Source: Acidovorax sp. 1608163
Lineage (GTDB): Bacteria > Pseudomonadota > Gammaproteobacteria > Burkholderiales > Burkholderiaceae_C
Direction: 5' to 3'
Length of the DNA stretch: 64,000 nucleotides
Assembly: GCF_003669015.1 (NCBI RefSeq)
Contig: NZ_CP033069.1
Span: 375,001 to 439,000, forward strand
Positions 23,497 through 64,000 of the stretch are shown here, piece by piece. Below the pieces are notes generated by a model that was given only the letters and a program-made list of their open reading frames with translations, was not told the origin of the DNA and ran no database searches. The translations under genes were made by a program, and so were the position numbers. How positions within the stretch are numbered: position 1 is the first letter of the stretch; the number at the start of each line of letters is the position of its first letter.

Positions 23497-25124
23497 ATGA
23501 AGCCCGGCCTGTCCCTGCGGGTCTCGCAGCACCTGGCCCTCACGCCGCAGTTGCAGCAGTCCATCCGGCTGCTGCAGTTGTCGACCCTGGAGTTGGGGCA
23601 AGAGGTTGAGCAGATGCTCGACGAAAACCCCTTCCTGGAGCGCAACGCCGATGAAGCCGTGCGCGAAGAGTTTGGCTTGGAGCACGCTGACACCCCCGTG
23701 CAGGCCGACGAGTACAGCGCAGATGATGCTATCTATTCAGGAGCTACCAGCGCTTCATCCACAAGCGCTGAGACCACTTCTGATGCGCAAAGTGACGCCT
23801 CGGGTGATGCCGACTACACCAGCAGCACTGCCTCTGACGAGCCCGATTGGGGCGGGGACGGCACGGTGGAGATGGCGCCCAATGAGAGCGAGTGGGGTGG
23901 CGACGCCCCCCGCGCACCCGCAACGACATGGAGGGCGACGAGGCCGATGCCACGGAGCTGGCACGCTCGCAAGAGTCCCTCACCGCCTTTTTGCACCGCC
24001 AGGCCCTGGCGCTGCGCTTGTCCGAGGTGGACCGCGCTGCCTTGCGCTTCCTCATCGAATCGCTGAACGACGATGGCTACCTGGAAGAGCCGCTGCAAGA
24101 GCTGGCCGTTAGCCTCGCGGGCCCGGATGACCTGGAGCAAATTGACGAGCTGGTGCACCGCTTTACGGTGGCCCAGCGCCTGCTGCAAACCCTGGAGCCT
24201 GTGGGCGTGGGCGCCCGCAACCTCGCCGAATGCCTGACCCTGCAACTCAGCGCCCTGGCGGCCGACCCTGACAGCGAGGCCCCTGCGGCCGTGGTGCAGA
24301 CCGCCTTGCTGATCTGCCAGCAGCCGCTGGAGATGCTGGCCCGCCGCGACGTGCGCCGCCTCACCCAGGCCTGCACCGAAGGCGGCGCTGCGGGTGAAGA
24401 ACGCACCCGCGCCGCCATGGCCCTGATTGCCCGGCTGGAGCCGCGTCCCGGGCGCCGCTTTGCCGACGTGGAGCGCAACATCATCATCCCCGATGTGATC
24501 GTGCGCAAAGCCGGGCGCGCCAATGGCAACAGCGGGCAGCAGAACTTCATCGTGGCGCTGAACCCCGACGTGATGCCGCGCCTGCGCGTGCACGACATCT
24601 ACGCCGGCGCCCTGCGCGGCCACAAGGGCGGCGAGGGCCACCAGGGCATGCAGCAGCGCCTGCAAGAGGCGCGTTGGTTCATCAAGAACATCCAGCAGCG
24701 CTTTGACACCATCTTGCGTGTCTCGCGCGCCATCGTGGAGCGGCAAAAGAGCTTCTTCACCCACGGCGAGCTGGCCATGCGCCCGCTGGTGCTGCGCGAC
24801 ATTGCCGACGAGCTGGGCCTGCACGAGTCCACCATCAGCCGCGTGACCACGGCCAAATACATGGCCACGCCCATCGGCACCTACGAGCTGAAGTACTTCT
24901 TCGGCTCCGGCCTGGGCACCGAAACCGGGGGCAACGCCTCCAGCACCGCGGTGCGTGCCCTCATCAAGCAGTTTGTGGCCGCTGAAAGCCCCACCAAGCC
25001 CTTGTCAGACAGCCAACTGGCCGAAATGCTCAAGGAGCAGGGCATCGAATGCGCCCGCCGCACGGTGGCCAAGTACCGCGAATCGCTCAAGATTGCGCCA
25101 GCCAATTTGCGCAAGTCGCTCTGA
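23497..25124 (+). pseudogene. rpoN: RNA polymerase sigma-54 factor RpoN, frameshifted
   Basis: Alternative sigma factor for enhancer-dependent promoters. Region I is intact ([30 protein letters not shown]), followed by an acidic region II, the core-binding domain, the HTH ([20 protein letters not shown]) and the RpoN box [14 protein letters not shown] at the C-terminus. The first 137 codons and the rest are in different frames; one extra C in the run at 23906-23911 restores [20 protein letters not shown] and a 542 aa protein. Loss of sigma-54 with every other part intact is unlikely, so an undercalled C is the better explanation. Region II also carries a palindromic-element insertion. No hpf gene follows, unlike in many bacteria. 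Confidence 0.93.
23728..23785. repeat. Palindromic element copy 4 (in frame within rpoN)
   Basis: GCTAT at the left edge, core CCAGCGCTT, 7 nt loop, AAGCGCTGA and a degenerate right arm ending TTCTGATG. It encodes [15 protein letters not shown] and following residues, about codons 78-97 of rpoN, in the poorly conserved acidic linker. It is read through without a stop. Confidence 0.65.
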
Positions 25125-25154
25125 GAGCCTGCCACCGGCAGGTTCCAGAGCTCT

Positions 25155-25173
25155 CGGGCTTGAGCCCGGGTTT
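25155..25173. terminator. Possible rpoN terminator
   Basis: CGGGCT, loop TG, AGCCCG followed by GGTTTAC, just after the rpoN stop and at the end of the convergent gene. A weak U tract makes it a poor terminator; a second hairpin (CCTGCC / GGCAGG) precedes it. Confidence 0.35.
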
Positions 25174-25711
25174 ACTTGGCGGCAGGGGCGCGCCGCAAAG
25201 ACCGCAGCATTTCCAGCGCCAGTGCCGTGGGCTCTTCGGCCTGGCCGTTGGCCAGTACCGTGAAGGTCACCTGCAGTTCATTCATGCCCAGGGCGCCTTG
25301 GGTCAGGTGCTTGAAGCCGCCTGCATCCGGGGCCCGGTCCGTGGCCGAGAAGTAATACCCCACCTTGCCCGAGGCCCCGAGGTCTTTGAGCGGCAGCTCG
25401 GCCTCCACGGCTTTGGGCTTGGCCCGCGTGGCTGCGCCTTGCACCTGTGCCCGCAGCTCGCTGGGGGTGGCGGGCTGTGCGCCATTCACAGGCCAGATGG
25501 GGGTGACCACCATTTGCAGTGCGCTCGCGTCGGGGCCGCTGATGGCCACCGAGGGCGGCAGCTCGGCCCGGGGGCGGCGGACTTGGGCGTGCCATTGGGC
25601 GGGGAGGTCGATGACCAGATCGTCATGGCCGGGCAAAGCCACCCGCAGTTCTTCGGCATGGACGGGCAGGGCGCAGGCCAGGGCCAGCAGGGTGATGAGT
25701 CGGCGGAGCAT
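25172..25711 (-). CDS. Hypothetical periplasmic protein
   Basis: A 179 aa protein with a clear signal peptide (MLRRLITLLALACALPVHAE), so probably exported. The mature part has beta-rich segments (LRVALPGHDDLVIDLPAQWH, LQMVVTPIWPVNG, GKVGYYFSATDR, LQVTFTVLANG) and no cysteine pair or lipobox. No family was recognised. The ATG at 25711 starts the signal peptide; upstream sequence in frame is not protein-like. Convergent with rpoN. Confidence 0.7.
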   Translation of the reverse strand: MLRRLITLLALACALPVHAEELRVALPGHDDLVIDLPAQWHAQVRRPRAELPPSVAISGPDASALQMVVTPIWPVNGAQPATPSELRAQVQGAATRAKPKAVEAELPLKDLGASGKVGYYFSATDRAPDAGGFKHLTQGALGMNELQVTFTVLANGQAEEPTALALEMLRSLRRAPAAK

Positions 25712-26096
25712 GGGGCGAAACAGGGTGGGAGTCAGAGGTACAGCACTGTAACCACCTGCGTGGCGAGGAGCGGCTGACCAAACTTCCCTGGCGTCGTTGT
25801 CCCGCCTTGTCGTACTCCTTGTACTGCCTGCGGCTAAACGCCTAGCCAGGGCCATGGCGCGGGGCAGCCGCTAAAATCGCCACTGTTGCATAGGGCGGGT
25901 AGCAGGTGCAGGTGCTGGGGCCGCCTTGCCAAAGCGCGTTGCCACCCGCCAGAGCCCCGCCTGGATGTGGCGAAGCCCCACTGAACCTGCCGAACCTGCC
26001 ACTGGGCCTGCCACCGCCGGGCCACTTGTTGCCCCCCGGCCCGGCATACCCCAAGGGCGCTGCCCACCAGCCACCACCATTCACTCCCTTCGCGCG

Positions 26097-26600: not shown

Positions 26601-27905
26601 ATGAACCAACTCCAACTCTTTCTTCCCTGCGCCGCTGGCGTAGAGGGCTTCCTTGCCGATGAGGTGCACGGCATCACCGGCCTCACGGGGCAAGACCTGC
26701 TGGTCGGGCGGGGCGGCGTGCTGCTGCGCAGCTCGTGGCGCCATGCGCTGCAGCTGAACCTGCACAGCCGCCTGACCCAGCGGGTGCTGGTGCAATTGGC
26801 CCACCGGCCTTATCGCTCAGAAAACGACCTGTACGCCATGGCCAGCGAGGTGGCCTGGGAGATCTGGTTCACCACGCGCCAGAGCTTCAAGATCGAAGTC
26901 ACGGCCCAGCACAGCCCGCTGCAGAGCCTGAATTTCGCCGCCCTCAAGGTGAAAGACGCGGTGGCCGACCGCTTCCGTGCCAAGTCCGGTGTGCGCCCCG
27001 ATGTGAACACCCAGTGGCCCGATGTGCGCATCCACCTGCACCTGACCACTGACGAAGCCACGATCTACATCGACACCTCGGGCGAGCCGCTGTTCAAGCG
27101 CGGCTGGCGCGAGGACAAGGGCGACGCGCCCCTGAAGGAAACCCTGGCCGCCGCCATGATCGCCGCCAGCGGCTGGGACCCGCACGGCGACAACCCCCAG
27201 CCCCTGTACGACCCCTGCTGCGGCAGCGGCACCATTGCCGTCGAAGCCGCGCAAATCGCCTGCCGCATCCCCGCGGGCATGCTGCGCCGCTTTGCTTTTG
27301 AAAAGCTGCTGCCCTTCCAGGCGCACGTCTGGACTGCTATCAAAAACGAAGCTGACAGCGCTATCTGCAAGAGCCCTGTGCCCATTTTTGGCAGCGATGT
27401 AGCCCACCGCATGGTGGACTTTGCCCAACGCAACGCCGAGCGTGCGGGCGTGGCCGACGCCGTGCAACTGCGCGGTGGCGATGCCCTGCAGCGCATGCCG
27501 CCTTGCGAGCAGCCCGGCGTGATGCTGCTCAACCCGCCCTACGGCGAGCGCATTGCTGCCGCAGGTAGCGCGGGCCGCAACGCCAGCGAGCGCGCCGCTG
27601 ACCGTGCCCAGGGCATGGTCGTGGGCCGCGAAGAGGCGCACACCGACGATGGTGGCGAGTTCTTCAGCCAACTGGCCACGCACTGGAAGAAGAACTACAG
27701 CGGCTGGACGGCCTGGATGCTGACGCCTGACCTCAAGCTGCCCGGCAAGATGCGCCTGAAGGAATCGCGCCGCGTGCCCATGTGGAACGGCCCCATCGAA
27801 TGCCGCATGTTCCGCTTCGACCTCATCAAGGGCTCGGTGCGCGCACCCCGTGCAGGGTCTGCGGGCGAGGGCGGGGCCCAACCCCCGGCAAGCCATGGCC
27901 AGTAA
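26601..27905 (+). CDS. THUMP-domain class I rRNA methyltransferase (RlmL-like)
   Basis: SAM-dependent RNA N2-guanine methyltransferase of the RlmL/YcbY N-terminal family (m2G2445-type activity on 23S rRNA is the best guess). 434 aa: THUMP domain about 45-160, SAM motif DPCCGSGTIAVEAAQ near 208-222 and catalytic LLNPPYGERI near 311-320. It lacks the C-terminal RlmK half that is fused in E. coli RlmL. A decayed palindromic element is read through at codons 246-264 between these motifs. It overlaps the PIN gene by 11 bp. Confidence 0.9.
   Translation: MNQLQLFLPCAAGVEGFLADEVHGITGLTGQDLLVGRGGVLLRSSWRHALQLNLHSRLTQRVLVQLAHRPYRSENDLYAMASEVAWEIWFTTRQSFKIEVTAQHSPLQSLNFAALKVKDAVADRFRAKSGVRPDVNTQWPDVRIHLHLTTDEATIYIDTSGEPLFKRGWREDKGDAPLKETLAAAMIAASGWDPHGDNPQPLYDPCCGSGTIAVEAAQIACRIPAGMLRRFAFEKLLPFQAHVWTAIKNEADSAICKSPVPIFGSDVAHRMVDFAQRNAERAGVADAVQLRGGDALQRMPPCEQPGVMLLNPPYGERIAAAGSAGRNASERAADRAQGMVVGREEAHTDDGGEFFSQLATHWKKNYSGWTAWMLTPDLKLPGKMRLKESRRVPMWNGPIECRMFRFDLIKGSVRAPRAGSAGEGGAQPPASHGQ
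27336..27392. repeat. Palindromic element copy 5 (in frame within rlmL-like gene)
   Basis: GCTATCAAAAAC, GAAGCTGACAGCGCT, short loop, AAGAGC and an ATTTTTG right edge. It encodes AIKNEADSAICKSPVPIFG in the methyltransferase domain, between the SAM motif and NPPY. The right arm is eroded. Confidence 0.6.
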
Positions 27906-28410
27906 ACCCCTGCGCGCCTTGCTGGCGCTGCCTGCCCAGGCGCAGGGCGAAGAGGCCGTGCGTGCCCTGGTGCTGGACACCAACATCGTGCTCGACCTGC
28001 TGGTGTTTGCCGACGAGGCCGTGGCCCCGGTGCGCGCGCTGCTGGCCGCAGGCCGCCTGCAATGGGTGGCCACGCAGGCCATGCGCACCGAGCTGGCCCG
28101 CGTGCTGGCCTACCCGCAAATCGTGCCGCGCCTGGCCTACTACCAGCTCACCGCCGCCGATGTGCTGGCCCGCTACGACGCGCAGGTGCGCTGGGTGGAC
28201 GTGGCCCCGCGCGTATCGGCCGTGTGCAAGGACGCCGACGACCAGCAGTTCATCGACCTGGCCGTGGCGCACCGCGCCATCTTGCTCAGCAAGGACAAGG
28301 CCGTCATTTGCATGCAAAAACGGCTGCTAGCGCTGGATACGCAAGCGGCAACAGCTATTGTTTTGGTAGCGAATGATGCCGCCATGGCCGCAGAGGTCGC
28401 TGCAGCGTAA
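27895..28410 (+). CDS. PIN-domain protein, putative toxin-antitoxin type
   Basis: A 171 aa COG1569-type PIN protein. Acidic positions expected for metal binding are in ALVLDTNIVLDLL, MRTELARVL and KDADDQQFIDLAV, with LLSKDKAV at the end of the core, so the ribonuclease site looks complete. The start at 27895 overlaps the preceding gene by 11 bp. No antitoxin gene adjoins it, so a toxin role is doubtful and it may act as a stand-alone nuclease. The last 30 residues contain an in-frame palindromic element. Confidence 0.8.
   Translation: MASKPLRALLALPAQAQGEEAVRALVLDTNIVLDLLVFADEAVAPVRALLAAGRLQWVATQAMRTELARVLAYPQIVPRLAYYQLTAADVLARYDAQVRWVDVAPRVSAVCKDADDQQFIDLAVAHRAILLSKDKAVICMQKRLLALDTQAATAIVLVANDAAMAAEVAAA
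28315..28370. repeat. Palindromic element copy 6 (in frame within PIN gene)
   Basis: AAAACGGCTGCTAGCGCT, short loop, CAAGCGGCAACAGCTATTG, TTTTGGTAGC. It encodes KRLLALDTQAATAIVL at codons 141-159, directly after the last conserved PIN motif. Confidence 0.75.
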
Positions 28411-32450: not shown

Positions 32451-32513
32451 TTTGCTATTTAATTTATAGCTGCTTGCGCTTTGTAGGTAAGCGCTATAGC
32501 CTTTTTTGTTTGA
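32451..32513. repeat. Palindromic element copy 7 (intergenic)
   Basis: ATAGCTGCTTGCGCTT, 7 nt loop, AAGCGCTATAGCC, TTTTTTG. It sits in the 5' region of the SulP gene, just ahead of a further hairpin. Confidence 0.85.
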
Positions 32514-35080: not shown

Positions 35081-35338
35081 TTACCCCTGCGTCAAAAACT
35101 TCTTCAAGTTCCTGCCGTCGTGCTCCGCACCTTGTGCTTGAGCGAGGGTGACCAGCCCAGCCGCACGCCCGGCATGCCCAGAGCCTAGCTTGACCAGCGC
35201 CAGAAGCTGAAGTGGTCACGGTACGTTGCGATCAGGTCGTTGGGTGTGAAGGTGATGGTGCCGTCGATGATGTTGTGCACCTTGCGCCCGGTGGCGCTGA
35301 AGAGATAGTGCGTCTCCCAGTGCGCTCGGCCGCCCCGG
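35081..35338 (-). pseudogene. Truncated duplicate of NTF2-like gene
   Basis: On the minus strand this encodes GGRAHWETHYLFSATGRKVH, NIIDGTITFTPNDLIATYRD and HFSFWRWS, then a premature TAG at 35185-35187 and a decayed tail. It closely matches the C-terminal half of the intact NTF2-like gene at 38494-38982, tail included. The N-terminal half is missing and is replaced by an unrelated desaturase fragment. It is a remnant of a partial duplication. Confidence 0.75.
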
Positions 35339-35699: not shown

Positions 35700-37307
35700 T
35701 TACATCAGCAGCGTCAGCAGGTGCTGCTGGTCCGGCGTCTCGCGCCGGTCCACCACGCGGTGCTTCACCACCGTTTCATGGGTTTCCAGCTGCTGCCGGT
35801 CGGTGCTGCGCACGGCACTGGTGAGCTTGTTATCGGCTGCGCTGATCAGGGTGCTCATGGTGCGGTGGTCCTGGATGGCATACCGGTCAAAATTGCCTGA
35901 GAGGATGTCGAGTGCGCCGTCATAGCGTGCCTTGGCGTAGTTCGATTGCAGCTGCTCGCTTTGCGTCTGAATGATGCCTGCCGTCTTTTCCTTGCGGTCC
36001 GCATCGACGGTGGTCTTCTGGCTGATGGCGTATTGGGCCTTGCCCTGCTCGTTGACATTGCCCCAGCGGTTGTCACGGCTGAAGTCGCCGCTGAAGCTGG
36101 CCTCAAAGTCCACCAGGCCGCTGAGCAGGGGCTGCACCTTCTCGACCAGGGCCGCGTCCACCGCGCTGGTCTCGCCCACGGGGGTGTCGCCCGCCGTGGT
36201 GGGCGCTGCACCGTGCAATTGCGAAAAGCTGCTTTTGAACAAGGCCACCAGCTTTTCATCGGCGTGGCTGCGGTCTGCCGCGGCATCGATGAGCTGCAGC
36301 TGCTGCGCAATGGCCGCCTGGCGCTGCTGCGCGCTGCCCGTTTGAAAGGGTGGCGTGGCGTCCAGCCGCAGGTCCATCTTGCCCGCAGCGCCCTGGTACG
36401 ACAGCGAACTGCCACCGTCGCCCAGGTGCAAGGCAAATGACCCCAGGGCCGCCGAAGCCGTAGGGTTCTGGATGTCCAGATTCAGCTGCGAAAACGCGCT
36501 GCGGTCATAGGCCAGCAGGCCCGAGAGGTCGATCTCCGGCGCATCGGCATCGCCCAGCCCGGCTAGCGTGTCCTCCAGCCCCTGCGACAGTGCGGCCAGT
36601 GCCCGGCGCTCGGTCTCGCTCAGCGGCCCGGTGCTGCTGACGGACACCTGCAAGCCCTGGCTGCTGCCCTCGCCCAATGTCCCTGGCTGCCGGTTGACCG
36701 CAATCTGCAAGTCCACCGTCTGCCCCGACCGTGTTTTGATCTGCAGCGTGACGGTGGTGGCACCTTTCTGAAGGCGGTCAAACTGCTCTTTCAGGGGCTG
36801 CGTTGGGTCTGCCGCCGACAGCAAGGTCTGCTGGTAATTGAGCGGCGATGTGGACGGGGCGGAGGCCAGCGACAACAGCGCACTGCCCAGGCCGTTCCAT
36901 TGGCTGGCCAGGGTGCCCTCGGTGCTGCGAAACTCGTTGCGCGCCATCTGGCGGCTGATGGCATCGCCAGCGGGCGCGGTGGCCCAGGCTTGCACACGCT
37001 GGGGCTCTGTCGCCGGGCTGTCGGGCAGTTCAGCCTTGGACCCCGATCCCCAGGCGACCGACACCAGCGGCCCGTAGGTGTTGTCGGGCGGCACCACCCG
37101 GTCTTGCGGCAGGGGGCTCCAGATCAGCGACGCCGTGGGGGCCGCATCGTCAGCGGCCAAGGTCAGCGCCGCGGCCGCCACAGACACCGAGGCCTGCGCG
37201 CTGCCGCCCGCCTCTTGCACCCGCTGGCGCAGCGCCTCGCGATCAATGGAAGGCGTTGGCACAGCCCCGCGCACGGCAGACAACGGCGATAGGGACGTCA
37301 AGGGCAT
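35700..37307 (-). CDS. Hypothetical protein, 535 aa
   Basis: A long, soluble protein without signal peptide or TM helices. It is Ala/Ser/Thr/Gln rich, with a basic-acidic coiled-coil-like C-terminus (DADRKEKTAGIIQTQSEQLQ, YDGALDILSGNFDRYAIQDH). The central part (TTVTLQIKTRSGQTVDLQIA, SSTGPLSETERRALAALSQG) looks beta then helical. No domain was recognised. Codon use and GC match the chromosome, so it is probably real. No neighbour suggests a role. Confidence 0.65.
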   Translation of the reverse strand: MPLTSLSPLSAVRGAVPTPSIDREALRQRVQEAGGSAQASVSVAAAALTLAADDAAPTASLIWSPLPQDRVVPPDNTYGPLVSVAWGSGSKAELPDSPATEPQRVQAWATAPAGDAISRQMARNEFRSTEGTLASQWNGLGSALLSLASAPSTSPLNYQQTLLSAADPTQPLKEQFDRLQKGATTVTLQIKTRSGQTVDLQIAVNRQPGTLGEGSSQGLQVSVSSTGPLSETERRALAALSQGLEDTLAGLGDADAPEIDLSGLLAYDRSAFSQLNLDIQNPTASAALGSFALHLGDGGSSLSYQGAAGKMDLRLDATPPFQTGSAQQRQAAIAQQLQLIDAAADRSHADEKLVALFKSSFSQLHGAAPTTAGDTPVGETSAVDAALVEKVQPLLSGLVDFEASFSGDFSRDNRWGNVNEQGKAQYAISQKTTVDADRKEKTAGIIQTQSEQLQSNYAKARYDGALDILSGNFDRYAIQDHRTMSTLISAADNKLTSAVRSTDRQQLETHETVVKHRVVDRRETPDQQHLLTLLM

Positions 37308-37721
37308 TCCCTCCCGGGGTGTTGGGTTGACAAATAGTTATCTATTTATCGGCGCGTTGGGGAGAATCTGTAGGGTGGGTTGGCGCCAGGGGCGACACAT
37401 GCAGGCTGGTGGCCCCGCCAATGCGGTAGCCAGGCGTGCTACCCCGCTGCATGGTGAAATTGCTATGTATTTGATAGCTTCTTGCGCTTGATTAGAAAGC
37501 GCTAGAGGCCTGTTTGGTTTGCATTCGGGCCACTGCGTGCCGCAGGTGTGATGCGACTGCTTGGTGGACAGTTTTGCGATAGAGTGCTTTGAGCCCTTTA
37601 CAGTCCAACTCAAAACAGTGGCGAGGCCGTCAGTTGATGGGGTCAACCCTTTACTTACGGGCCTGCTTGTCGCGCAGACTCTGTTGCTCGCACAACTGCG
37701 ATTGATCGAAAGACCCGCTCT
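37308..37721. other. Intergenic region, 414 bp
   Basis: Between the divergent 535 aa and membrane protein genes. It holds palindromic element copy 8 (37462-37520) and AT-richer sequence that could carry promoters for both genes; no clear -10/-35 pair, small gene or RNA was identified. Confidence 0.5.
37462..37520. repeat. Palindromic element copy 8 (intergenic)
   Basis: GCTATGTATTTGATAGC, TTCTTGCGCTT, 6-7 nt loop, AAGCGCTAGAGGCC, TGTTTGGTTT. A good match to the family with the GGCC-type right arm. Confidence 0.85.
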
Positions 37722-38138
37722 ATGCGTGTAACGCTTGTCGCCAAAAATTTAGCAATTGCCGCGTTCATCGCATCACCGGTGGCGCTTTCTCTGGGGTCGG
37801 TGTGCTTCGCTTTGATTGCCCCTAACGACATTCGAGAGCCTGCAACAGCTTGGGTGCTCATTGCCCTGGCATCAATGGCGATGGCAATGAATCTTCACCT
37901 TTCGTTTTTACGTTCTGCGCTGTACGCCATGCGCCATGGCAAATCAATGAACGGCTACAAGCATGTTTCTGGGATTCCCGTGGTTGGGTCAATCCTTGTC
38001 GCGATTGCGGTTTTAGTCGCCTGGGGAAATCTGTCAGTAGCTGCCACCAGTCTGCTGATACTTGTCGCCGATACCGGGGGCGTTGTTTGGTTGTTTGCAG
38101 TCCTTGTTCGTGACAGGTCATTTTGGCGCGAACCGTAA
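37722..38138 (+). CDS. Hypothetical membrane protein
   Basis: A 138 aa protein with four predicted helices (about 10-30, 40-62, 82-100, 105-125) and a charged loop with RHGKSMNGYKHVSG. No family recognised. Lower GC than the chromosome average. ATG 37722 follows AAAGACCCGCTCT, a weak ribosome site. Confidence 0.6.
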   Translation: MRVTLVAKNLAIAAFIASPVALSLGSVCFALIAPNDIREPATAWVLIALASMAMAMNLHLSFLRSALYAMRHGKSMNGYKHVSGIPVVGSILVAIAVLVAWGNLSVAATSLLILVADTGGVVWLFAVLVRDRSFWREP

Positions 38139-38188
38139 GGTGCTTGACTCTTTACGCGAACCCCTGGTTTTTTGTCGCGGTGAAAAAA

Positions 38189-38404
38189 TCATTCAGAGAG
38201 AGGCGGCACTTGCGTGCCGACAGGGCCAACCCATTCAAGCCGCAGTCCCAGCTCGTGCTCCTTGCGTACCTGTTCAAGGGACGAGACCCAGCCGCCGTCG
38301 GCTTCAATCTCGTCGATGCAACCCCAGCAGTCACCGCCGCAATCTTGAGACAGCAGGTCTTCGCGCCTGTCTAGCTCGCGCCCACAAATTTGACACCTTG
38401 CCAT
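38189..38404 (-). CDS. Small zinc-ribbon-like protein
   Basis: A 71 aa protein with two cysteine pairs, CQIC (about 4-7) and CGGDCWGC (about 22-29), suited to zinc binding, followed by an acidic helix (EADGGWVSSLEQVRKEHE). The ATG at 38404 starts directly before the first Cys pair. No function recognised. Confidence 0.55.
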   Translation of the reverse strand: MARCQICGRELDRREDLLSQDCGGDCWGCIDEIEADGGWVSSLEQVRKEHELGLRLEWVGPVGTQVPPLSE

Positions 38405-38493
38405 TGGTCTTGAGTATTCAGTGTGAACTGCCGGTTGTAGCCGATAGCCACCGACCCTGCGCATCAACCCTCTGCCGCATCACGCAACCCCCA

Positions 38494-38982
38494 TCACCCC
38501 TGCGCCAAAAACTTCTTCAAGTTCCCCGCCGCCGTACTCCGCACCTTGCGCTTGAGCGAAGGCGACCAGCCCAGCAGCACGCCCGGCAGGCCCAGGGCTT
38601 GGCGTGACCAGCGCCAGAAGCTGAAGCGGTCGCGGTGCGTGGCGATGAGCCCGTCGGGCGTGAAGGTGAAGGTGCCGTCGATGATGTTGTGCACCTTGCG
38701 CCCGGTGGCGCTGAAGAGGTAGTGCGCCTCCCAGTGCGCGCGGCCGCCGTTGGCGTCGGCTTCGATGCCGTTGAACTCCAGCTTCCAGTGCTCGGCCGCG
38801 CCGGGCTTTTGGGTGGCGCTGCACAGCATGCGCCACATGCCGCCCACCTGCTCGCGGCCCTTGAGCGAGAAGGCCTCGTCGTCAAACGTGGCGTTGGGCG
38901 CGTAGCAGGCGGCCATGGTGGCGTGGTCGAGCTGGCTGAAGGCGGTGTAAAAGCGCTGCAGGGTCTGGGCGTTGGGGTGCAT
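38494..38982 (-). CDS. NTF2-like (SnoaL-type) family protein
   Basis: A 162 aa cone-fold protein of the nuclear transport factor 2 superfamily: LQRFYTAFSQLDHATMAACY, APNATFDDEAFSLKGREQV and HYLFSATGRKVHNIIDGTFT are characteristic. The fold covers isomerases and many proteins of unknown role. It has an extra basic tail (SPSLKRKVRSTAAGNLKKFL). ATG 38982 has a strong GGAGGAG site. A decayed partial copy is at 35081-35338. Confidence 0.85.
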   Translation of the reverse strand: MHPNAQTLQRFYTAFSQLDHATMAACYAPNATFDDEAFSLKGREQVGGMWRMLCSATQKPGAAEHWKLEFNGIEADANGGRAHWEAHYLFSATGRKVHNIIDGTFTFTPDGLIATHRDRFSFWRWSRQALGLPGVLLGWSPSLKRKVRSTAAGNLKKFLAQG

Positions 38983-39086
38983 GGGTCTCCTCCTGAATGT
39001 GGGCGCCCATGCTACCCGCTGGGCGGTGGCCGCACTGCCGCCTGGGTGACGCTGGCCGCAGTTCAGCATGCCGCCCGGCCGCCGTA

Positions 39087-40235
39087 TCAGCTCTGCGCGA
39101 CCTTGAGCCGGGGCACGGCGCCATCGGCAATGGCTTCGCCAAACGGGCTCAGCAGCGTGGCGCCCACCTTCTCTTGCACCGCCACGGGCAGCAGGGGGAA
39201 CACCAGCTCGGCAAAGCGGTAGGCCTCTTCCAGGTGCGGATAGCCCGAGAGCACAAACGTGTCAGCCCCCAGTGCCGCGTATTCCTTCAGGCGGTCTGCC
39301 ACCTGCTGCGGGTTGCCCACCAGGGCCGTGCCCGCGCCGCCGCGCACCAGGCCCACGCCGGCCCACAGGTTGGGGCTGATCTCCAGCTTGTCGCGCTGGC
39401 CGCCGTGCAGTGCGCTCATGCGCTGCTGGCCTTCCGAGTCCAGGCGCGCCAGTGCCGCCTGTGCGCGGGCCACCGTTTCGTCGTCCAGCTCGCTGATCAG
39501 TCGGTCGGCGGCGGCCCAGGCTTCTGGCTCGGTCTCGCGCACGATCACGTGCAGGCGCACGCCAAAGCGCACGGTGCGGCCCTTGGCGGCGGCGCGGGCG
39601 CGGAGGTCGGCAAACTTGGCCGCCACATCTTCGGGGCGCTCGCCCCACGAGATGTACAGCTCCACCTGCTCGGCCGCTAGGTCGTGCGCAGCGGGGGACG
39701 AGCCGCCAAAGTACAGCGGCGGGTGCGGCTGCTGCAGCGGTGGAAAGAGCTGGCGCGCGCCTTTGACTTTGATGTGCTCGCCATCAAAGTCCACCGTCTC
39801 GCCCGCCAGCAGGCCCTTCCACACGGTGAGGAATTCGCGCGCATGTTCGTAGCGCGCATCGTGCGAGAGAAAGGTGCCATCGGCCTCCAGGTCGCCCGCA
39901 TCGCCCCCGGCCACCACGTTGATGAGCAGGCGCCCAGCCGAGAGGCGGTCCAGCGTGGCGGCCATGCGCGCATTGGCCGTGACGGAGAACGTGGTGGGCC
40001 GCAGCGCCACCAAAAACTTGAGCGTGCGCGTGACGGCCGCCAGGTTGGAGGCGATGACCCACGAGTCCTCGCACGAGCGCCCTGTGGGCACCAGCACGCC
40101 GCCGTAGCCCAGGCGCTCAGCCGCCTGTGCAATCTGCTGCAAATAGGTTTGGTCTACCGCCCGCGCTTGCTGCGTGCTGCCAAGGTAACGGCCATCGCCG
40201 TGGGTGGGAAGGAACCAGAAAACGTGGAGGCTCAT
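39087..40235 (-). CDS. ssuD: FMNH2-dependent alkanesulfonate monooxygenase
   Basis: Releases sulfite from alkanesulfonates using FMNH2 and O2. 382 aa, luciferase-like TIM barrel, with SsuD-specific segments [52 protein letters not shown] and [19 protein letters not shown]. The SsuE reductase and SsuABC transporter genes are not adjacent, so this is a lone copy. 187 bp upstream (40236-40422) holds no gene. Confidence 0.94.
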
Positions 40236-40422
40236 GAGGGACTTTCAGCATCAGGAATGAAGGAAAGCCCCATTGTTCGAATGCGCCTGCACCAGCGTTT
40301 GATCTGCCGCAAACCCGCATGGGCACTGGGTTTTCTTGCATTGGTGGGCGCATATGTATGCTCGGTTTTGGCATAAGCGAGGTGTGCGCCGCCCCCCTGA
40401 AAAACGCAGCGCCTGGAGCGAA

Positions 40423-40989
40423 TCAGCTGCTTGCTTGCAGCAGCGCGTTCAACCGCTCGCAGGCCCAGTGCAGTGTTTGCTGGCGCACGGCGGCGCGGTC
40501 GCCGTCGAAGCGGCGGGTGGCGGTGGTCACGGTGCCGTTCACGTTCCAGCCAAACCAGACGGTGCCCACGGGTTTGTCGGCGCTGCCGCCGGTGGGGCCG
40601 GCAATGCCGGTGACGGCCACGGCCACCTGGGCGCGGGAGTGGGCTACGGCGCCCTGGGCCATGGCGCGGGCCACGGGCTCGCTCACGGCGCCGTGCTCGG
40701 CGATCAGCGTGGCGGGCACGCCCAGCAGCTCGGTCTTGGCTTCGTTGGAATAGGTGACGAAGCCGCGCTCAAACCACTGGCTCGAACCTGCCAGGTCGGT
40801 GCAGGCGGCGGCGATCATGCCGCCGGTGCAGCTCTCGGCGGTGGCCAGAATCCAGCCGCGTGTAAGCAGGGTGGCAGATATTTGAATCAAATGGGCCTCT
40901 AGCGCTTGATTGGTAAGCGCTGGCGGCTCACTTTTTGATAGTAATTGGGGTGTCGGTGCGGACAGGTCGGTGGGGTCTGCGGGGCTCAT
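40423..40989 (-). CDS. CinA-family nicotinamide-nucleotide amidohydrolase
   Basis: Stand-alone C-terminal CinA (PncC-type) domain that deamidates nicotinamide mononucleotide. 188 aa. Conserved ATAESCTGGMIAA, SSQWFERGFVTYSNEAK, AVTGIAGPTGGSADKPVGTV. The start overlaps the pgpA stop (ATGA). Residues about 16-36 come from an in-frame palindromic element, an N-terminal extension absent from typical family members. Confidence 0.92.
   Translation of the reverse strand: MSPADPTDLSAPTPQLLSKSEPPALTNQALEAHLIQISATLLTRGWILATAESCTGGMIAAACTDLAGSSQWFERGFVTYSNEAKTELLGVPATLIAEHGAVSEPVARAMAQGAVAHSRAQVAVAVTGIAGPTGGSADKPVGTVWFGWNVNGTVTTATRRFDGDRAAVRQQTLHWACERLNALLQASS
40881..40943. repeat. Palindromic element copy 9 (in frame within cinA)
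   Basis: AAATGGGCCTCTAGCGCTT, 7 nt loop, AAGCGCTGGCGGCTC, ACTTTTTGATAG. Read on the minus strand it encodes LLSKSEPPALTNQALEAHLI near the CinA N-terminus. Confidence 0.82.
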
Positions 40990-41543
40990 GCCAAGAACCT
41001 CCACAGCGCAATCACCAGCAGCGTGCAGAAGGCGGCCACAAAGTCGTCAAACAAAATGCCCCAGCCACCGCGCCAGCCAAAGCCTTTGAACAGGCTGTCG
41101 GCCCAGCCCACGGGGCCGGGCTTGGCGGCGTCAAAAAAGCGGAACAGGGCGAAGGCCAAGATTTGGCCCGTGAGGCCCATGGGCATGGCCAGCCACAGCA
41201 CGAGCCAGAAGGCCACGATTTCGTCCCACACGATGGCGCCAGGGTCGGCCACGCGCAGGTGGCGGGCGGCGGTGGTGCAGGCCCACCAGCCCACCAGGGC
41301 GCCACCCAGGATCAGCGCGCCCATTTGCCAGGCATTGAGCCAAGGCTTGAGCACCGAAAACGACATCCAGCCCCACAGCGTGCCCACAGTGCCGGGCGCG
41401 ATGGGCGAGAGGCCCGAGCCAAAGCCCAGCGCAATGGCGTGGGCCGGGTGCGCCAGCATGAAGGCGGCGCTGGCGCGGCGCGGTGCGCCCATGCCGGGGG
41501 CTGCGGGCGTTGGCGTGGCAGGCGTTTGGGCGTCAAAGGTCAT
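40986..41543 (-). CDS. pgpA: Phosphatidylglycerophosphatase A
   Basis: Membrane phosphatase making phosphatidylglycerol from its phosphate. 185 aa. Family motifs GFGSGLSPIAPGTVGTLWGW (about 42-61), VWDEIVAFW, LFRFFDAAKPGPVGWAD and GWGILFDDFVAAF; several TM helices. The start at 41543 overlaps the muiA stop by 4 bp and its stop overlaps the cinA start, giving the operon muiA-pgpA-cinA. thiL, the usual pgpA partner, is 6.5 kb away. Confidence 0.93.
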   Translation of the reverse strand: MTFDAQTPATPTPAAPGMGAPRRASAAFMLAHPAHAIALGFGSGLSPIAPGTVGTLWGWMSFSVLKPWLNAWQMGALILGGALVGWWACTTAARHLRVADPGAIVWDEIVAFWLVLWLAMPMGLTGQILAFALFRFFDAAKPGPVGWADSLFKGFGWRGGWGILFDDFVAAFCTLLVIALWRFLA

Positions 41544-43192: not shown

Positions 43193-43390
43193 GGCGGGGC
43201 TCCTGGGGGCAGAGGGGCAAAACGGCGCAGGCGCTGCGGTGCGCGCTTTGCGGTGGGTGGAATGCTAGCAGCGTGGGGCCGCTTGCCAACGCGGAGGGCG
43301 CAACGCTTTACGGCTTGTTTATGTTGGGTTAAGGCGCCCTTCATCCCCTGGGACTATGGTGGCAAGACCGACAAAACAAGGACAGGGTCG

Positions 43391-44698: not shown

Positions 44699-44705
44699 GC
44701 GCGAG

Positions 44706-44723
44706 CCGGGCCGCACGGCCCGG
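44706..44723. terminator. Hairpin between convergent genes
   Basis: CCGGGCCG, CA, CGGCCCGG between the ferric reductase and pectate-lyase genes. It is very GC-rich and lacks a U tract; a possible bidirectional transcription block. Confidence 0.45.
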
Positions 44724-44743
44724 TACGGATCAGGCCGCTGGTG

Positions 44744-46528: not shown

Positions 46529-46633
46529 GTGTCTGTCTCCTCATTGAATGGATGTGTGCCTGGGGCGGCCCGCAAGGAGGGGCGCCACAGGTCCGGTCTG
46601 GATGCCGATGCTGTGTGGACATTACTTAGAGAA

Positions 46634-46649
46634 ATGATGTCGTACAACA
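46634..46649. promoter_or_regulatory. Candidate operator 1, pectate lyase side
   Basis: ATGATGTCGTACAACA, about 105 bp upstream of the lyase ATG. On the opposite strand it matches site 2 at 11 of 16 positions. The form resembles GntR-type operators. Inferred. Confidence 0.4.
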
Positions 46650-46885
46650 AGCGGCGATTCTCTGGAGTTTGATTTGCCACATGAATGGCGTTTACCCGTA
46701 TGGCTGGTTAGCAAATGTTGCTGAAAAATGGGATGCATTCGCAGATGAAATGCTTGTCGTCACTCTGAAGAATGAAACGAAGCGGTATGCGCTGAAAAAG
46801 TGTCAAAGGCGAATTGCAAACTGAAAAGCCGGTGGCGTGGGTGCCTTCCATCCCGCAATCGGTATCCAGTGATGTGCAAATTGAT

Positions 46886-46901
46886 ATGACATCGTACTAA
46901 T
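46886..46901. promoter_or_regulatory. Candidate operator 2, TRAP side
   Basis: ATGACATCGTACTAAT, 60 bp upstream of the TRAP ATG, sharing the TCGTAC core with site 1. A common regulator is implied, but none is encoded in the window. Inferred. Confidence 0.4.
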
Positions 46902-46961
46902 AAGTAATAACCGAAGATGGTCCGCCCAAGGGGGTCGAGCCCACAAAAAAGGAGTGAGGAG

Positions 46962-47957
46962 ATGACACACCAACTGCTGCGGCAGGCCCGCCAATGGGCG
47001 GCCCCGCTGGCGCTGGGCCTGGCCTGCGTCGTGGCGCCTGCCAGCGCGCAAACCAAGCTGCGGGCCTGGAATATTCACCCCGACGGCTACCCCGTGACCG
47101 AGGCGATGAAGAGCTTTGCCGACCAGGTGAACAAGGGCACGCAGGGGCGCTACCAGATCGAGGTGTTCTCCAACGCCACGCTGGGCGACCAGCCCAAGGC
47201 CGTGCAGATGCTCAAGAGCGGCGAGATCGATCTGGCCGAGTTCAGCTCGGGCCCACTGTCCGACGCGGTGCCGGGCATCAAGGTGCTGAACCTGCCGTTT
47301 CTGTTCACCGACTCGGCCCACATGTTCCGCCACCTGGACGGCAAGCTGGGCGAGCGCTTTGCCTCCAACCTCAAAGGCGCTGGCTTTGTGGTGCTGGGCT
47401 GGTACGACGGCGGGGCGCGCTCGTTTTACTGCGCTGGCCGCAGCCCGAACAATCTGCGCGATCTGGCGGGGGCTTCCATCCGGGTGCAGCAGTCGGAGAT
47501 TTACATTGAAATGGTCAAGCTGCTGGACGCCAAGCCCGTGCCGCTGCCCTTCAAAGAGGTGATGGCCGGATTTGAAAAGGGCACCATCGACTGCGCCGAG
47601 AACAACATGCCGTCGTACGAGGCGACGGGCCATTACAAGGTCGCCAAAAACGTGTACGTGACCAACCACGTGGTCTCGCCCGAGGCGCTGGTGGTGTCGG
47701 CCGCGCTGTGGGGCAAGCTGTCAGAGGCCGACCGCAAGGTCTTTCAAGACGCCGGTGGCAAATCAGCCCTGCTGATGCGCGAGCTGTGGAACAAGCGCGT
47801 GGCCCAGGCGCAGGAGACCACGGCCAAGCAGGGTGCGCAGTTTGTGCGGGTCAAGGACGTATCGCCCTTCGTGCGCCGCATGTCGCCGCTGTACGGCAAG
47901 TACATGAACGATCCCACCACGCGCGAAGAGCTGCTCAGCATCATCGCCAACAAGTGA
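46962..47957 (+). CDS. TRAP transporter substrate-binding protein, DctP family
   Basis: Periplasmic binding protein of a TRAP transporter, 331 aa. Signal peptide to about residue 28 (ending ASAQ), then TKLRAWNIHPDGYPVTEAM, a conserved carboxylate-binding Arg in ASIRVQQSEIYIEM and IDCAENNMPSYEATGHYKVA. These features resemble DctP proteins for uronates or related acids. Strong GGAGTGAGGAG site. No DctQ or DctM gene follows, so its membrane partner is elsewhere. Confidence 0.88.
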   Translation: MTHQLLRQARQWAAPLALGLACVVAPASAQTKLRAWNIHPDGYPVTEAMKSFADQVNKGTQGRYQIEVFSNATLGDQPKAVQMLKSGEIDLAEFSSGPLSDAVPGIKVLNLPFLFTDSAHMFRHLDGKLGERFASNLKGAGFVVLGWYDGGARSFYCAGRSPNNLRDLAGASIRVQQSEIYIEMVKLLDAKPVPLPFKEVMAGFEKGTIDCAENNMPSYEATGHYKVAKNVYVTNHVVSPEALVVSAALWGKLSEADRKVFQDAGGKSALLMRELWNKRVAQAQETTAKQGAQFVRVKDVSPFVRRMSPLYGKYMNDPTTREELLSIIANK

Positions 47958-48036
47958 GGGCGCGGGGGGCCGCGCTGCCCGCTGCGCACGGATGCGCGTG
48001 CCGATCAGCGCACCCACCTGCACGCTGATGGGTGCG

Positions 48037-49023
48037 TCAGGCGAAGTGATCGAACGAGGCGAAGCGGTGCTCCACTGGCTGGCCCTGTGCATCCACCAGC
48101 CGCAGCCCGGGCTCGGCCTGCACCTGGCCAATGCGTGCCACGGGCGTCTGGCTTTGGGCTGCAGCGGCGGCCACGGCGGCGCGGTGCGCTGGCGGGGCGG
48201 TGAACACCAGCTCGTAGTCGTCCCCGCCTGCCAGCGTGCACTGGTGCAGCAGTGGTGCGCTGGATTGAGTGTCAAATAGGCCTGTAGCGCTTGATAAATA
48301 AGCGCTGGCAGCTATCAATTTGATAGTTTCATGGGCGTGAATGCACGCCCCCATGCCCGAGGCCTTGAGGATGTGGGCAAAGTCGCCCAGCAGGCCGTCG
48401 CTCACGTCCATGGCGCTGCTGGCAATGCCGCGCAGCGCCAGGCCCAGCGCCACGCGGGGCGTGGGCCGCTCCAGCCGCAGGCGGGCCTGGGCCAGCAGGT
48501 CGTTGGGCAGGTGGATGTGGCCGAGCAGCGCTTCCAGTGCCAGGCGTGCATCGCCCAGCGTGCCGCTCACGTAAATGTCGTCGCCCGCCCGCGCGCCGCT
48601 GCGCAGCAGGGCCTGGCCCGCGGGCACCTCGCCAAACACGGTGATGCAGATATTGAGCGGGCCCTGCGTGGTGTCGCCACCCACCAGCTCACAGCCGTGC
48701 GCATCGGCCAGCGCCAGCAGCCCGCGCGAAAAGCCTGCCAGCCACGCTTCGTCTACCCGTGGCAGTGCCAAAGCCAGCGTGAAGGCCATCGGCTTGGCAC
48801 CGCAAGCCGCCAGGTCCGACAGGTTCACGGCCAGGGCCTTGTGGCCCAGGGCCTCGGGGTCCACATCGGCAAAAAAGTGGCGGCCCTCCACCAGCATGTC
48901 GCTGCTGACGGCCAGCTGCATGCCGGGGCGCGGGGCCAGCAAGGCGCAGTCGTCGCCCACGCCTAAAGCGGCGTGGCGCACGGGGCGCGTGAAGTAGCGC
49001 GCGATCAAGTCAAATTCACCCAT
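48037..49023 (-). CDS. thiL: Thiamine-monophosphate kinase
   Basis: Makes thiamine diphosphate from thiamine monophosphate with ATP. 328 aa. Motifs GEFDLIARYF at the N-terminus, GVGDDCALLAP, DMLVEGRHF, VNLSDLAACGAKP, GGDTTQGP, DVSDGLLGDFAHIL and LAGGDDYELVFT. About 19 residues (233-251) come from an in-frame palindromic element in the loop before GGDDYEL. Convergent with the TRAP gene; usual partners pgpA and cinA are 6.5 kb away. Confidence 0.95.
   Translation of the reverse strand: MGEFDLIARYFTRPVRHAALGVGDDCALLAPRPGMQLAVSSDMLVEGRHFFADVDPEALGHKALAVNLSDLAACGAKPMAFTLALALPRVDEAWLAGFSRGLLALADAHGCELVGGDTTQGPLNICITVFGEVPAGQALLRSGARAGDDIYVSGTLGDARLALEALLGHIHLPNDLLAQARLRLERPTPRVALGLALRGIASSAMDVSDGLLGDFAHILKASGMGACIHAHETIKLIAASAYLSSATGLFDTQSSAPLLHQCTLAGGDDYELVFTAPPAHRAAVAAAAAQSQTPVARIGQVQAEPGLRLVDAQGQPVEHRFASFDHFA
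48271..48327. repeat. Palindromic element copy 10 (in frame within thiL)
   Basis: GTCAAATAGGCCTGTAGCGC, TT, 6-7 nt loop, AAGCGCTGGCAGCTATC, AATTTGATAG. On the minus strand it encodes TIKLIAASAYLSSATGLFD. Confidence 0.85.
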
Positions 49024-49073
49024 GCTCCGATTGTCGGTGGGTTGGGGGCTGCAACAGTCGATCCGTCGGGGGC

Positions 49074-50198
49074 TCAGACCGGCACGCCGCGAAAGCGCTG
49101 CGCTGCCTGGCGGCTGACCTCGGCCAGCAACTGCTCTTCGCGCTGGCGCTCGCGCAGCCAGCGGGCATCGTTCTGGCCGGCTTCGGTCTCGGTGCGCAGC
49201 AGGTGCAGCGCGTTGGCGGCGCCTTGCACGGCGGCGTGGCCTGCAATCTGGTTCATCGTCTGCAGGATGTGTTCGCGCAGCGGCATGTGTTCACCCGTGG
49301 CCGGGTCCACATACACCGCGTCCAGCCCAAAGCGGCAGGCCTGGAAGCGGTTGTAGGTGTAGACGAGGTAGTCGTCCTCCTGCGGCATGAAGGGCTGGTC
49401 GGCCAGGAACCATGAGCCCAGGGCCTGCACGTAGCCTGCCAACGCGGCAGCGCGCTCGATGGTTAGGGGGGTGTCGAACACGCGGATTTCGATGGTGCCG
49501 AACTCGGGCTTAGGGCGGATGTCCCAGTAAAAATCCTTCATGCTTTTCACGACCCCGGTGCGGGTCATCTTGTCGAAGTACTGGCCAAACGCTTCCCAGG
49601 TCAGCACAAACGGTGCGCGGCCCGACAGCGGAAACGCGAACACCGAGTTCAGCCGCGCTGAGTCAAACGCCGTGTCTTGCCCCTGCACATAGGGGCTCGA
49701 CGCGGACAGCGCGATGAAGTGCGGGATGTAGCGCGACATGCGGTGCAGCATGAGCAGCGCGGCGTTCGCATCGGGGCAGCCAATGTGCACGTGCTGGCCG
49801 AAGATGGTGAACTGCTTGGACAGGTAGCCATACAGCTCCGACAGTTCGCGAAAGCGCGGCTTGTCGTAAATGCGGCGCTCGTGCCACTGCTGGAACGGGT
49901 GCGTGCCGCCGCCCACCACGGCGATGTTGAGCTTGTCGGCGCTTTTGACCAGCGCATCGCGGATCGGCGTGAGCTGGCCCACCACTTCGCTGGCCGAGTG
50001 GCAGATGCCCGTGGAGATTTCGATCATGCTGTTCGTCATCTCGGGCACCACGCTGCCGGGCAGCGGGGTTTTCTTCATCAGGCGCAGCATGTCCTCGGCA
50101 TAGGGGGCCAGGTCGTAGTCGTTGGTGTTGACGAGCTGCAGCTCCAGTTCAACGCCCAGCGTCAGCGGTTCGGAGTGGTGAAAGGCTTCAAGACTCAT
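49074..50198 (-). CDS. YbdK family carboxylate-amine ligase
   Basis: A GCS2-fold ATP-dependent ligase of 374 aa. Conserved [86 protein letters not shown]. Relatives have weak glutamate-cysteine ligase activity. ATG 50198 has GGAGAG upstream. Its start overlaps the end of the Kef-like antiporter gene by 11 bp, so the two are cotranscribed. Confidence 0.9.
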
Positions 50199-62456: not shown

Positions 62457-62486
62457 AGCCACCCTTAAATGCTTTGAAGATGCGTT

Positions 62487-62507
62487 CGGAAATTGTTGAA
62501 TATTTCG
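62487..62507. promoter_or_regulatory. Candidate LysR operator between SDR and lysR
   Basis: GAAAT, 8 nt, ATTTC within the 114 bp divergent region. It has the layout of a LysR-type site. Weak evidence. Confidence 0.35.
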
Positions 62508-62570
62508 TCCTATGGTGGTTTGGAGATTGGGGCAGGGCAGCTGTTTCAATCCAGTAGAAAATCTACACCC

Positions 62571-63443
62571 ATGATTAATCCTCTGGGCCGCACGCCCTCA
62601 CTCAATGCCTTGCGGGCCTTCGAAGTGGCGAGCCGCCATCTCAACTTCCGCCTTGCGGGTCTGGAACTGGGCGTGACGCAAGGCGCGGTGGCGCAGCAGA
62701 TTCGAGCACTGGAGGCTGAACTGGGCCTGAAGTTGTTCGAGCGCCATCCGCGCACGCTGGCGCTCACGCAGAACGGGCAGCGCTATGTGATAGGCGTGCG
62801 CCGTGCGTTTGAGACCTTGGCGCAGGCCACCCAAGGCCTATGCCCCGAGCCGCAGCACCTGACCATCAGCGTGACGCCCACCTTCGCCACCAAATGGCTC
62901 ATGCCCCGGCTGGGCGACTACACCCGGGCTTATCCTGGTATGGATTTTCGCATTCTTGCGACGGAGCGCTTGTCTCACTTCCACACCGAAGCGGTAGACC
63001 TTGCTGTGCGTTATGGTCGCCCGCCCTTCGGGCCCGGGCTTCAGGCCGACTTGCTGTTTGACGAGTGCTTGGTGGCGGTGGGGCACCCCCACACAGCGGG
63101 TGAGAATGCCCCGCATGTGCTGGTGCATGACTCCCAGTCTTCGTGGGATCAGTACTTTGAGCAATGCAGGCCCCAGGCGCGTGAGGCAGCAGCGCAAGGC
63201 ATCTGGTTCAACCAGACGACCTTGGCCATCGATGCCGCGCTGATCGGGCAAGGCATAGCGCTTGTCCAAAGAGATTTCGTGGCGCAGGATTTGGCCGCTG
63301 GACGATTGGTCCAGGTGTTCCCGCAGGAAATGCGCACAGATGCAGGCTACTACCTGGTATGCCCACGCAAGCAACGGCAGCCAGAGGCCGTGGCGGATGT
63401 CAGGAGGTGGCTTGGGGCCGTGGGCCGACAGGCGAGTGCCTGA
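62571..63443 (+). CDS. LysR family regulator, GcvA-like
   Basis: A 290 aa LysR regulator: winged HTH (SLNALRAFEVASRHLNFRLA, LGVTQGAVAQQIRALEAELG) and an effector domain (TISVTPTFATKWLMPRLGDY, AVDLAVRYGRPPFGPGLQAD). The KWLMPRL stretch is typical of GcvA-like members. Divergent from the SDR gene, its likely target. ATG 62571 set by homology. Confidence 0.92.
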   Translation: MINPLGRTPSLNALRAFEVASRHLNFRLAGLELGVTQGAVAQQIRALEAELGLKLFERHPRTLALTQNGQRYVIGVRRAFETLAQATQGLCPEPQHLTISVTPTFATKWLMPRLGDYTRAYPGMDFRILATERLSHFHTEAVDLAVRYGRPPFGPGLQADLLFDECLVAVGHPHTAGENAPHVLVHDSQSSWDQYFEQCRPQAREAAAQGIWFNQTTLAIDAALIGQGIALVQRDFVAQDLAAGRLVQVFPQEMRTDAGYYLVCPRKQRQPEAVADVRRWLGAVGRQASA

Positions 63444-63491
63444 GGTCGGTGGCTTTAGCATCCTCCACGCTACCAACTCTATTGCGCTGTT

Positions 63492-64000
63492 GTGAACTTT
63501 ATTCCCTTGCTTCCGTCCCGTGTGGACGCCGTCATCGTCGACTTGGACGGGACCATGGTGGACACCATGGGCGATTTCAACGAGGCGCTGAACCGCATGC
63601 TGCGCGAGCTCGGGTTGCCTGCCATCGAGGCCGAGCGCATCGAGAGCATGGTGGGCAAAGGGTCGGAGCATTTGCTGCGATCCGTGCTAAATCATGTGCT
63701 AGCGCCTATAGATAAAGCGCAAGCAGCTATCAAAACAGAAGCATTATTTCCCCAGGCCTGGGCCAGCTACCAGCGCCATTACCTGGAAATCAACGGCAGC
63801 TATTCAGCGGTGTACCCCGGTGTGGTGGAGGGGCTGACAGCCCTGCAAAGCGCGGGCCTGCGCATGGCTTGCCTGACGAACAAGCCTTTGTCATTTGCGC
63901 GGCCTTTGTTGCAGGCCAAGGGGCTGGCGGGGTTTTTCGGCCAGGTGTTTGGGGGCGACAGCTTTGAGCGCAAGAAGCCCGATCCGCTGCCCCTGCTAAA
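63492..64000 (+). CDS. gph: Phosphoglycolate phosphatase, 3' end outside window
   Basis: HAD-superfamily phosphatase removing phosphate from 2-phosphoglycolate. N-terminal nucleophile motif DAVIVDLDGTMVDTM, cap domain EALNRMLRELGL, GKGSEHLLRSVL, CLTNKP (motif II) and KKPDP (motif III) are visible; the C-terminus is cut off by the window. GTG 63492 is the best start. A palindromic element is read through at codons 66-84 in the cap domain. Confidence 0.93.
   Translation, partial: MNFIPLLPSRVDAVIVDLDGTMVDTMGDFNEALNRMLRELGLPAIEAERIESMVGKGSEHLLRSVLNHVLAPIDKAQAAIKTEALFPQAWASYQRHYLEINGSYSAVYPGVVEGLTALQSAGLRMACLTNKPLSFARPLLQAKGLAGFFGQVFGGDSFERKKPDPLPLL
63688..63742. repeat. Palindromic element copy 11 (in frame within gph)
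   Basis: AAATCATGTGCTAGCGCC, short loop, AAAGCGCAAGCAGCTATC, AAAACAG. It encodes HVLAPIDKAQAAIKTEA and lies in the cap domain, where relatives have a variable loop. Confidence 0.8.

Follow-up and report, generated by a model that had tools for sequence, protein, structure and literature searches.

The window analysed here is a stretch of 64,000 nucleotides (nt) from Acidovorax sp. 1608163 (contig NZ_CP033069.1, positions 375,001 to 439,000, forward strand), in which a repeat of about 56 nt with the core AGCGC-N9-AAGCGC-N4-AGCTAT-N2-WWW-N2-ATAGC is present in and around protein-coding genes. The 10 copies found in the window are alignable over 56 columns without a gap and are made up of conserved blocks and a variable loop. 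Inside thiL, rpoN and cinA, and also in comEC elsewhere on the contig, the nucleotide sequence of the motif is preserved from species to species in spite of normal codon usage. Taken together, our analysis suggests that the repeat is probably an old, dispersed and strictly spaced DNA recognition motif and not an inserted palindromic selfish element. The copies in the window, together with one stretch which had been taken for a copy, are listed below (ORF, open reading frame).

7319..7374, + strand: motif copy without an assigned gene of known family
11403..11458, + strand: motif copy at the 5' end of ORF 11399-13009 (+)
13002..13057, + strand: motif copy at the 3' end of ORF 11399-13009, whose stop codon is supplied by the AAATAG of the copy
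23728..23783, - strand: in-frame motif copy in rpoN, in the linker after the AID (gene on the + strand, from 23497)
27330..27375, + strand: supposed copy in an RlmL-like gene, place approximate; rejected as a copy both by the model and by the length comparison
28315..28370, + strand: motif copy in the C-terminal tail of a PIN_3 protein (ORF 27760-28410, +)
32454..32509, - strand: motif copy without an assigned gene of known family
37462..37517, - strand: motif copy without an assigned gene of known family
40887..40942, + strand: motif copy coding for an N-terminal segment of a CinA/PncC-like protein (gene on the - strand, 40423-40989)
48272..48327, + strand: in-frame motif copy in thiL (gene on the - strand, 48037-49023), common to several genera
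63687..63742, + strand: in-frame motif copy in gph (gene on the + strand), net +10 residues relative to orthologues of canonical length

ORF 11399-13009 carries a motif copy at each end (11403-13057). Orthologues of the ORF at 11453-13006 are too divergent for a comparison of intergenic sharing.

An iterated profile search at E<=0.01 of an 864-kb sample, consisting of the window and 40 spaced stretches of 20 kb from the same genome, reveals 122 non-overlapping copies, and the reversed sample used as a control contains none at E<=1. The density of about 140 copies/Mb extrapolates to about 700 copies in the 5.05-Mb genome, and a profile search over the whole genome returns at least 150 matches. 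Local alignments are ungapped in 121 of the 122 copies and span at least 53 nt in 83 of them, the remaining 39 being shorter than 53 nt. None of the copies are near-identical (highest pairwise identity 0.893), and the identity to the nearest copy is 0.774 compared to 0.745 in column-shuffled copies (standard deviation 0.003). Information content of the motif is about 57 bits, while about 14 bits would be sufficient for picking 710 sites. Polarity with respect to the replichores is non-significant (35/22 vs 29/36, Fisher p 0.07). Rfam at gathering scores identifies only rRNA in the window, and a terminator scan of positions 37000-49500 finds 8 terminators against 10.1 in shuffled sequences.

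Reading frames of the flanks were assigned by a coding model blind to stop codons. By this assignment 18 of the 122 copies are open in the frame of a single gene and 7 are in the same frame but contain a stop; 7 have flanks on the same strand in another frame, 9 have convergent flanks, 55 have one coding flank and 26 have none. The core is read as AGC GCT in 10 of the open in-gene copies, as GCG CT in 7 and in the third frame in 1 (6 of the 18 are weak matches with E above 1e-5). The suggestion of the initial annotation that only two frames of the core are usable is therefore borne out by 17 of these 18 copies, as predicted by the stop codons of the consensus; for the 103 other copies, the numbers open in each of the six orientation-frames are 61, 44, 38, 26, 3 and 3. 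A bias towards in-frame copies had also been anticipated and is seen in the sample, where 18 open copies compare with 14 stopped or out-of-frame ones. Pfam searches on the flanks of these 14, all with same-strand flanks, demonstrated a split gene at none of them: the two flanks belong to different Pfam families in 11 cases, one flank is without a Pfam family in 2 and only one flank was scanned in 1.

Within the window, six genes had been proposed to contain a translated copy. The profile confirms this for rpoN, PIN, cinA, thiL and gph, but not for the RlmL-like gene, which is without a profile match, has the same length at this place in 22 same-genus orthologues and differs from 7 other-family orthologues by zero or a few residues, the latter being mostly longer. 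In rpoN, thiL and gph the frame of the two flanks runs through the copy without a stop; the copies in PIN and cinA are located at a gene end and are open in the ORF. A strong in-frame copy is also present in comEC, the gene of a DNA-uptake channel, at contig positions 1175354-1175409; a profile match is found in 13 of 21 same-genus loci of this gene. As initially described, no stop or frame change occurs within the repeat, but rpoN as assembled shifts frame about 130 bp downstream. This frame change of rpoN (window 23497-25124), near position 23915, possibly stems from a misread run of C; the open frame is 190 amino acids (aa) long in this assembly compared to 542-777 aa in 23 same-genus genomes.

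Each copy had further been thought to add about 20 residues, which does not agree with the alignments. The PIN protein shows no gain compared to 21 same-genus orthologues (tails apart), and these relatives encode similar residues at the colinear place without a profile match. ComEC gains 5 residues relative to 7 of 9 other-family sequences, and gph gains 10 relative to the 11 of 29 orthologues having canonical (shortest) length. The thiL segment is 38 residues long in the window, 34 in 58 of 81 sequences and 22-30 in 9 of 81, giving a gain of +8 to +16 for the form in the window; the common form gains +4 to +8 or more, and the solved ThiL structure 3mcq has 11 fewer residues at the segment. 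Because the gain in length varies in this manner, insertion of a unit of fixed length is rejected.

Placement of the inserts in loops, linkers or termini, as assumed earlier, is not confirmed. The motif lies outside the Pfam match to Sigma54_AID in rpoN and outside that to PIN_3 in the PIN protein, and in cinA it precedes the part that is alignable to solved structures. The model of ThiL, with a mean predicted local distance difference test score (pLDDT) of 67.9, falls below 50 at residues 238-256, over most of the motif residues 233-250. For gph, the comparison with solved structures was by sequence only.

The copy in thiL is common to several genera. A profile match is present in 36 of 80 named loci, always in the same orientation, in records of Acidovorax, Simplicispira, Polaromonas, Rhodoferax and Comamonas among others; the residues of the loop differ between species by apparent single point changes, as judged by eye. 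The nearest named relative of the ThiL of the window is that of A. temperans, with 90-91% identity. In cinA, matches of the same orientation occur in the 5' part of 22 of 80 loci, many of the loci stopping short of this part.

Codon choice points to retention of the DNA sequence itself. G+C content at third codon positions (GC3) is 0.40 in the thiL insert compared to 0.84 elsewhere in the gene (71 of 81 sequences with all 18 codons), and consensus codons are observed 463 times in all 81 sequences against 124.5 expected from local usage. The isoleucine codon is ATA in 52 of 55 sequences, where 1.6 would be expected, and protein-level selection alone does not explain the retention of this codon. 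The footprint is about 22 codons wide, and three thiL orthologues without a copy (L086, L106 and L107) have a GC3 of 0.89-1.00 at the site. A similar dip in GC3 is visible in rpoN (24 sequences), cinA (up to 53) and comEC (21), its edge being less clean in cinA because the 5' end varies.

Age of the sites was assessed by mapping copies between an uninterrupted 197-kb segment that includes the window and 220 kb of A. temperans sequence; some of the mapped spans are coarse. Among 31 copies of our genome, 14 are shared, 5 are absent and 12 are unmapped (14 of 19 mapped copies), and the matching copy has the same orientation in 13 of the 14. In the reverse direction, 17 of 25 A. temperans copies are shared and 8 are unmapped, so that all 17 mapped copies are shared. 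A clean empty site of 56 bp was not seen in this comparison. In five shared pairs without an assigned gene, the conserved positions of the motif are 93% identical and the variable positions 55%.

The Acidovorax consensus is palindromic and a hairpin is possible. However, among 22 candidate arm pairs examined in the 103 copies that lie outside open frames, 21 are no better matched by Watson-Crick pairing than in shuffled copies; the sole pair above the shuffled level is 11-37 (z 3.0), and two outer pairs in stem 2 lie below that level. These statistics disfavour an RNA or cruciform structure. Copies are more frequent beside the 3' ends of genes, with 28 in convergent gaps and 6 in divergent gaps compared to background gaps of 78 and 96, respectively. 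There is no orientation bias with respect to co-directional genes (26 same, 34 opposite). The pattern of gaps and orientations and the identity at the conserved positions fit a DNA site which is kept away from promoters.

Of 60 genomes taken one per genus from the GTDB family, 19 have a profile match, among them that of the window; under strict filters 13 of these have at least 10 matches and 6 have 1 to 5. Across the order, a match is found in 1 of 41 genomes, which is the window's own, and in none of the 40 from other families. No copies were found in 7 loci (120 kb) of Variovorax. Models trained outside thiL reveal genus dialects: the Polaromonas form, AGCCC...NGCGC, is non-palindromic, in contrast to AGCGC...AAGCGC of Acidovorax. 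Between Polaromonas and Acidovorax copies outside thiL, 8 of 56 positions are genus-diagnostic (p<0.01, uncorrected). The thiL copies follow their genus at all 8 of these positions (r>0.5, with r>=0.87 at 6). The set retains 12 of the 17 sequences of Polaromonas and 17 of the 18 of Acidovorax, after removal of thiL copies that scored <=5 or lay on the + strand. Sequences were grouped by the title of their record, except that a metagenome-assembled genome titled Moraxellaceae was placed with Polaromonas and a record titled Burkholderiales with Acidovorax. The raw score of Polaromonas minus Acidovorax comes out too high in degenerate sequences (L107, L110 and L084), and the claim of a dialect therefore rests on the diagnostic positions. 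We take the dialect of thiL as support, not as proof.

A motif which is read by a protein on DNA would be expected to have strictly spaced blocks, to persist in permissive reading frames, to form dialects and not to depend on RNA structure. A putative DNA-binding machinery acting in trans probably recognises the motif and would select for its retention or drive it, and the proteins would accommodate it in the form of loop, linker or terminal residues. As to the identity of the motif, the leading candidate is a self-DNA uptake signal for natural transformation mediated by type IV pili, which we propose tentatively and at less than even probability. DNA uptake sequences, namely those of Neisseriaceae (DUS) and Pasteurellaceae (USS), are likewise dispersed in many copies and also occur in genes. 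Genus dialects are described for DUS in the part of PMC3630211 considered, and are present here as well. The repeat thus shares with these signals a strictly spaced motif, a high copy number, permissive in-gene frames and genus dialects. However, DNA uptake sequences are given as 9-11 bp in the part of PMC4212676 considered, whereas the repeat described here has 56 bp in several blocks. The same part reports natural transformation in A. temperans, A. facilis and Verminephrobacter, with selective uptake in V. eiseniae, and names no uptake motif. The presence of a copy within comEC is either a coincidence or a hint; ComEC is encoded in this genome and also in 10 of 14 control genomes. With the same reserve, the repeat may represent a new and independently evolved uptake-signal family of Comamonadaceae of about 56 bp, multi-block, with genus dialects and carried in conserved proteins including ComEC.

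Several points weigh against a maintained recognition motif. The excess of about 57 bits over the 14 needed suggests a past spread by copying, the gain in length in thiL, gph and comEC indicates that DNA was added there, and the slightly higher likeness of copies than in shuffled ones would be explained by some remaining ancestry or local coupling. A profile match is found in only 8 of 24 same-genus loci of rpoN, own included, and in 3 of 29 loci of gph from other genera, and the copies in rpoN and PIN are among the five absent from A. temperans at the threshold used. Regions without an A. temperans counterpart contain 8 copies against 10.0 expected, and hence are not clearly poorer. Codon statistics treat related species as independent and understate the errors, the comparison of conserved with variable positions is partly circular, and several of the covariation pairs have a nearly invariant side and are uninformative. 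Even spread along the chromosome is weak (p 0.025; coefficient of variation of the gaps over 197 kb, P 0.26), and the dialect shift may reflect few lineage events. In the part of PMC4212676 considered, DNA from other species of Acidovorax is reported not to transform A. temperans, a finding that lends no support to a genus-wide signal.

The main alternative to an uptake signal is a binding site of a putative nucleoid-associated or chromosome-segregation protein, which we regard as possible, at a slightly lower probability than the uptake signal. Such a site would account for the strict multi-block spacing, the retention in genes and the dialects, as well as for the spread along the chromosome without significant replichore polarity. 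However, no candidate protein was found, none having been sought, the 120 kb of Variovorax are free of copies, and avoidance of divergent gaps is expected of any bulky motif. If this alternative is true, the site would be an unusually long one.

We consider it improbable that the repeat is a domesticated or relic element of the miniature inverted-repeat transposable element (MITE), repetitive extragenic palindromic (REP) or Rickettsia palindromic element (RPE) type, in which ancestral transposition was followed by the keeping of in-frame survivors, so that the copies resemble each other by ancestry. This possibility draws on the palindromic Acidovorax consensus and on the high information content, length gains and excess likeness discussed above; the genome also contains two Y1_Tnp genes, one of them with a copy about 1.2 kb away. 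The RPEs described in PMC10969869 offer a precedent, and the initial annotation had drawn this parallel, since RPEs too are translated in frame inside genes. The parallel fails beyond the in-frame copies: RPEs are insertions of about 150 bp in the part of PMC10969869 considered, whereas the sites studied here are old, shared by several species and associated with a variable gain in length; neither a fixed-length insertion nor a maintained palindrome is found. The arms hardly covary, the Polaromonas form is not palindromic, identity between copies does not exceed 0.893, and AT-rich codons are kept at a site common to several genera. REP sequences, bacterial interspersed mosaic elements (BIMEs) and REPINs resemble the repeat in being short, dispersed, palindromic (in Acidovorax) and more frequent at 3' ends; they differ from it by its little structural covariation, its copies in genes and its non-palindromic Polaromonas form. 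With regard to genes like those of REP-associated tyrosine transposases (RAYTs), one Y1_Tnp locus (L151, 3.3 kb) is without a copy and the copy at the other (L152) is about 1.2 kb off.

Homogenisation of functionless copies by continuing gene conversion is very improbable. It could explain why thiL follows the dialect of its genus, but the thiL loop varies by apparent point changes, little is shared beyond the consensus, and a tract of 56 nt is short for gene conversion. Least probable of all is an RNA hairpin acting as a terminator, a stabiliser of mRNA 3' ends or a REP-like structure, as the preference for gene 3' ends and the possible hairpin of the Acidovorax consensus are outweighed by the near absence of covariation, the lack of orientation bias, the missing palindrome in Polaromonas and the retention of copies in translated genes.

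Parts of the motif have been reported earlier. Table 7 of PMC5217627 lists GCTTAT(N)5AAGCG in Acidovorax ebreus with 114 copies, 5 of them in genes, and ATAGCT(N)22CAAAAG in Polaromonas naphthalenivorans with 125 copies, 18 in genes, the role of both being given as unknown. The A. ebreus pair, present in 44 convergent and 4 divergent gaps according to the same source, fits the Acidovorax core, and the P. naphthalenivorans pair possibly belongs to the same family. These pairs are reported as mostly intergenic, and the section concerned does not treat in-gene conservation or dialects. Among the literature matches listed, none describes in-gene nucleotide conservation, dialects or an uptake role of the motif, and a term search of PMC3733652 and PMC12306157 for Acidovorax, Polaromonas, Delftia and Comamonas gave no mention of these genera. 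The repeat deserves attention as a genome-wide DNA signal which apparently dictates codons in conserved protein genes, in thiL across genera, and it cautions that in-frame repeats in genes are not necessarily insertions of selfish DNA. Should the uptake signal prove true, the way in which Acidovorax and Verminephrobacter recognise their own DNA would be open to direct test.

Some further features were observed. A stretch of low G+C content (0.558) at contig positions 2300001-2320000, of defence type with genes for trypsin-PLD, HerA, SIR2-like and B-family polymerase proteins, contains 0 motif copies. Five viral contigs in IMG/VR have one exact match each to an extended motif, which may be a provirus edge or phage-borne. 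Finally, the window contains two direct repeats of 224 nt (35111-35334 and 38525-38748) that are 89% identical.

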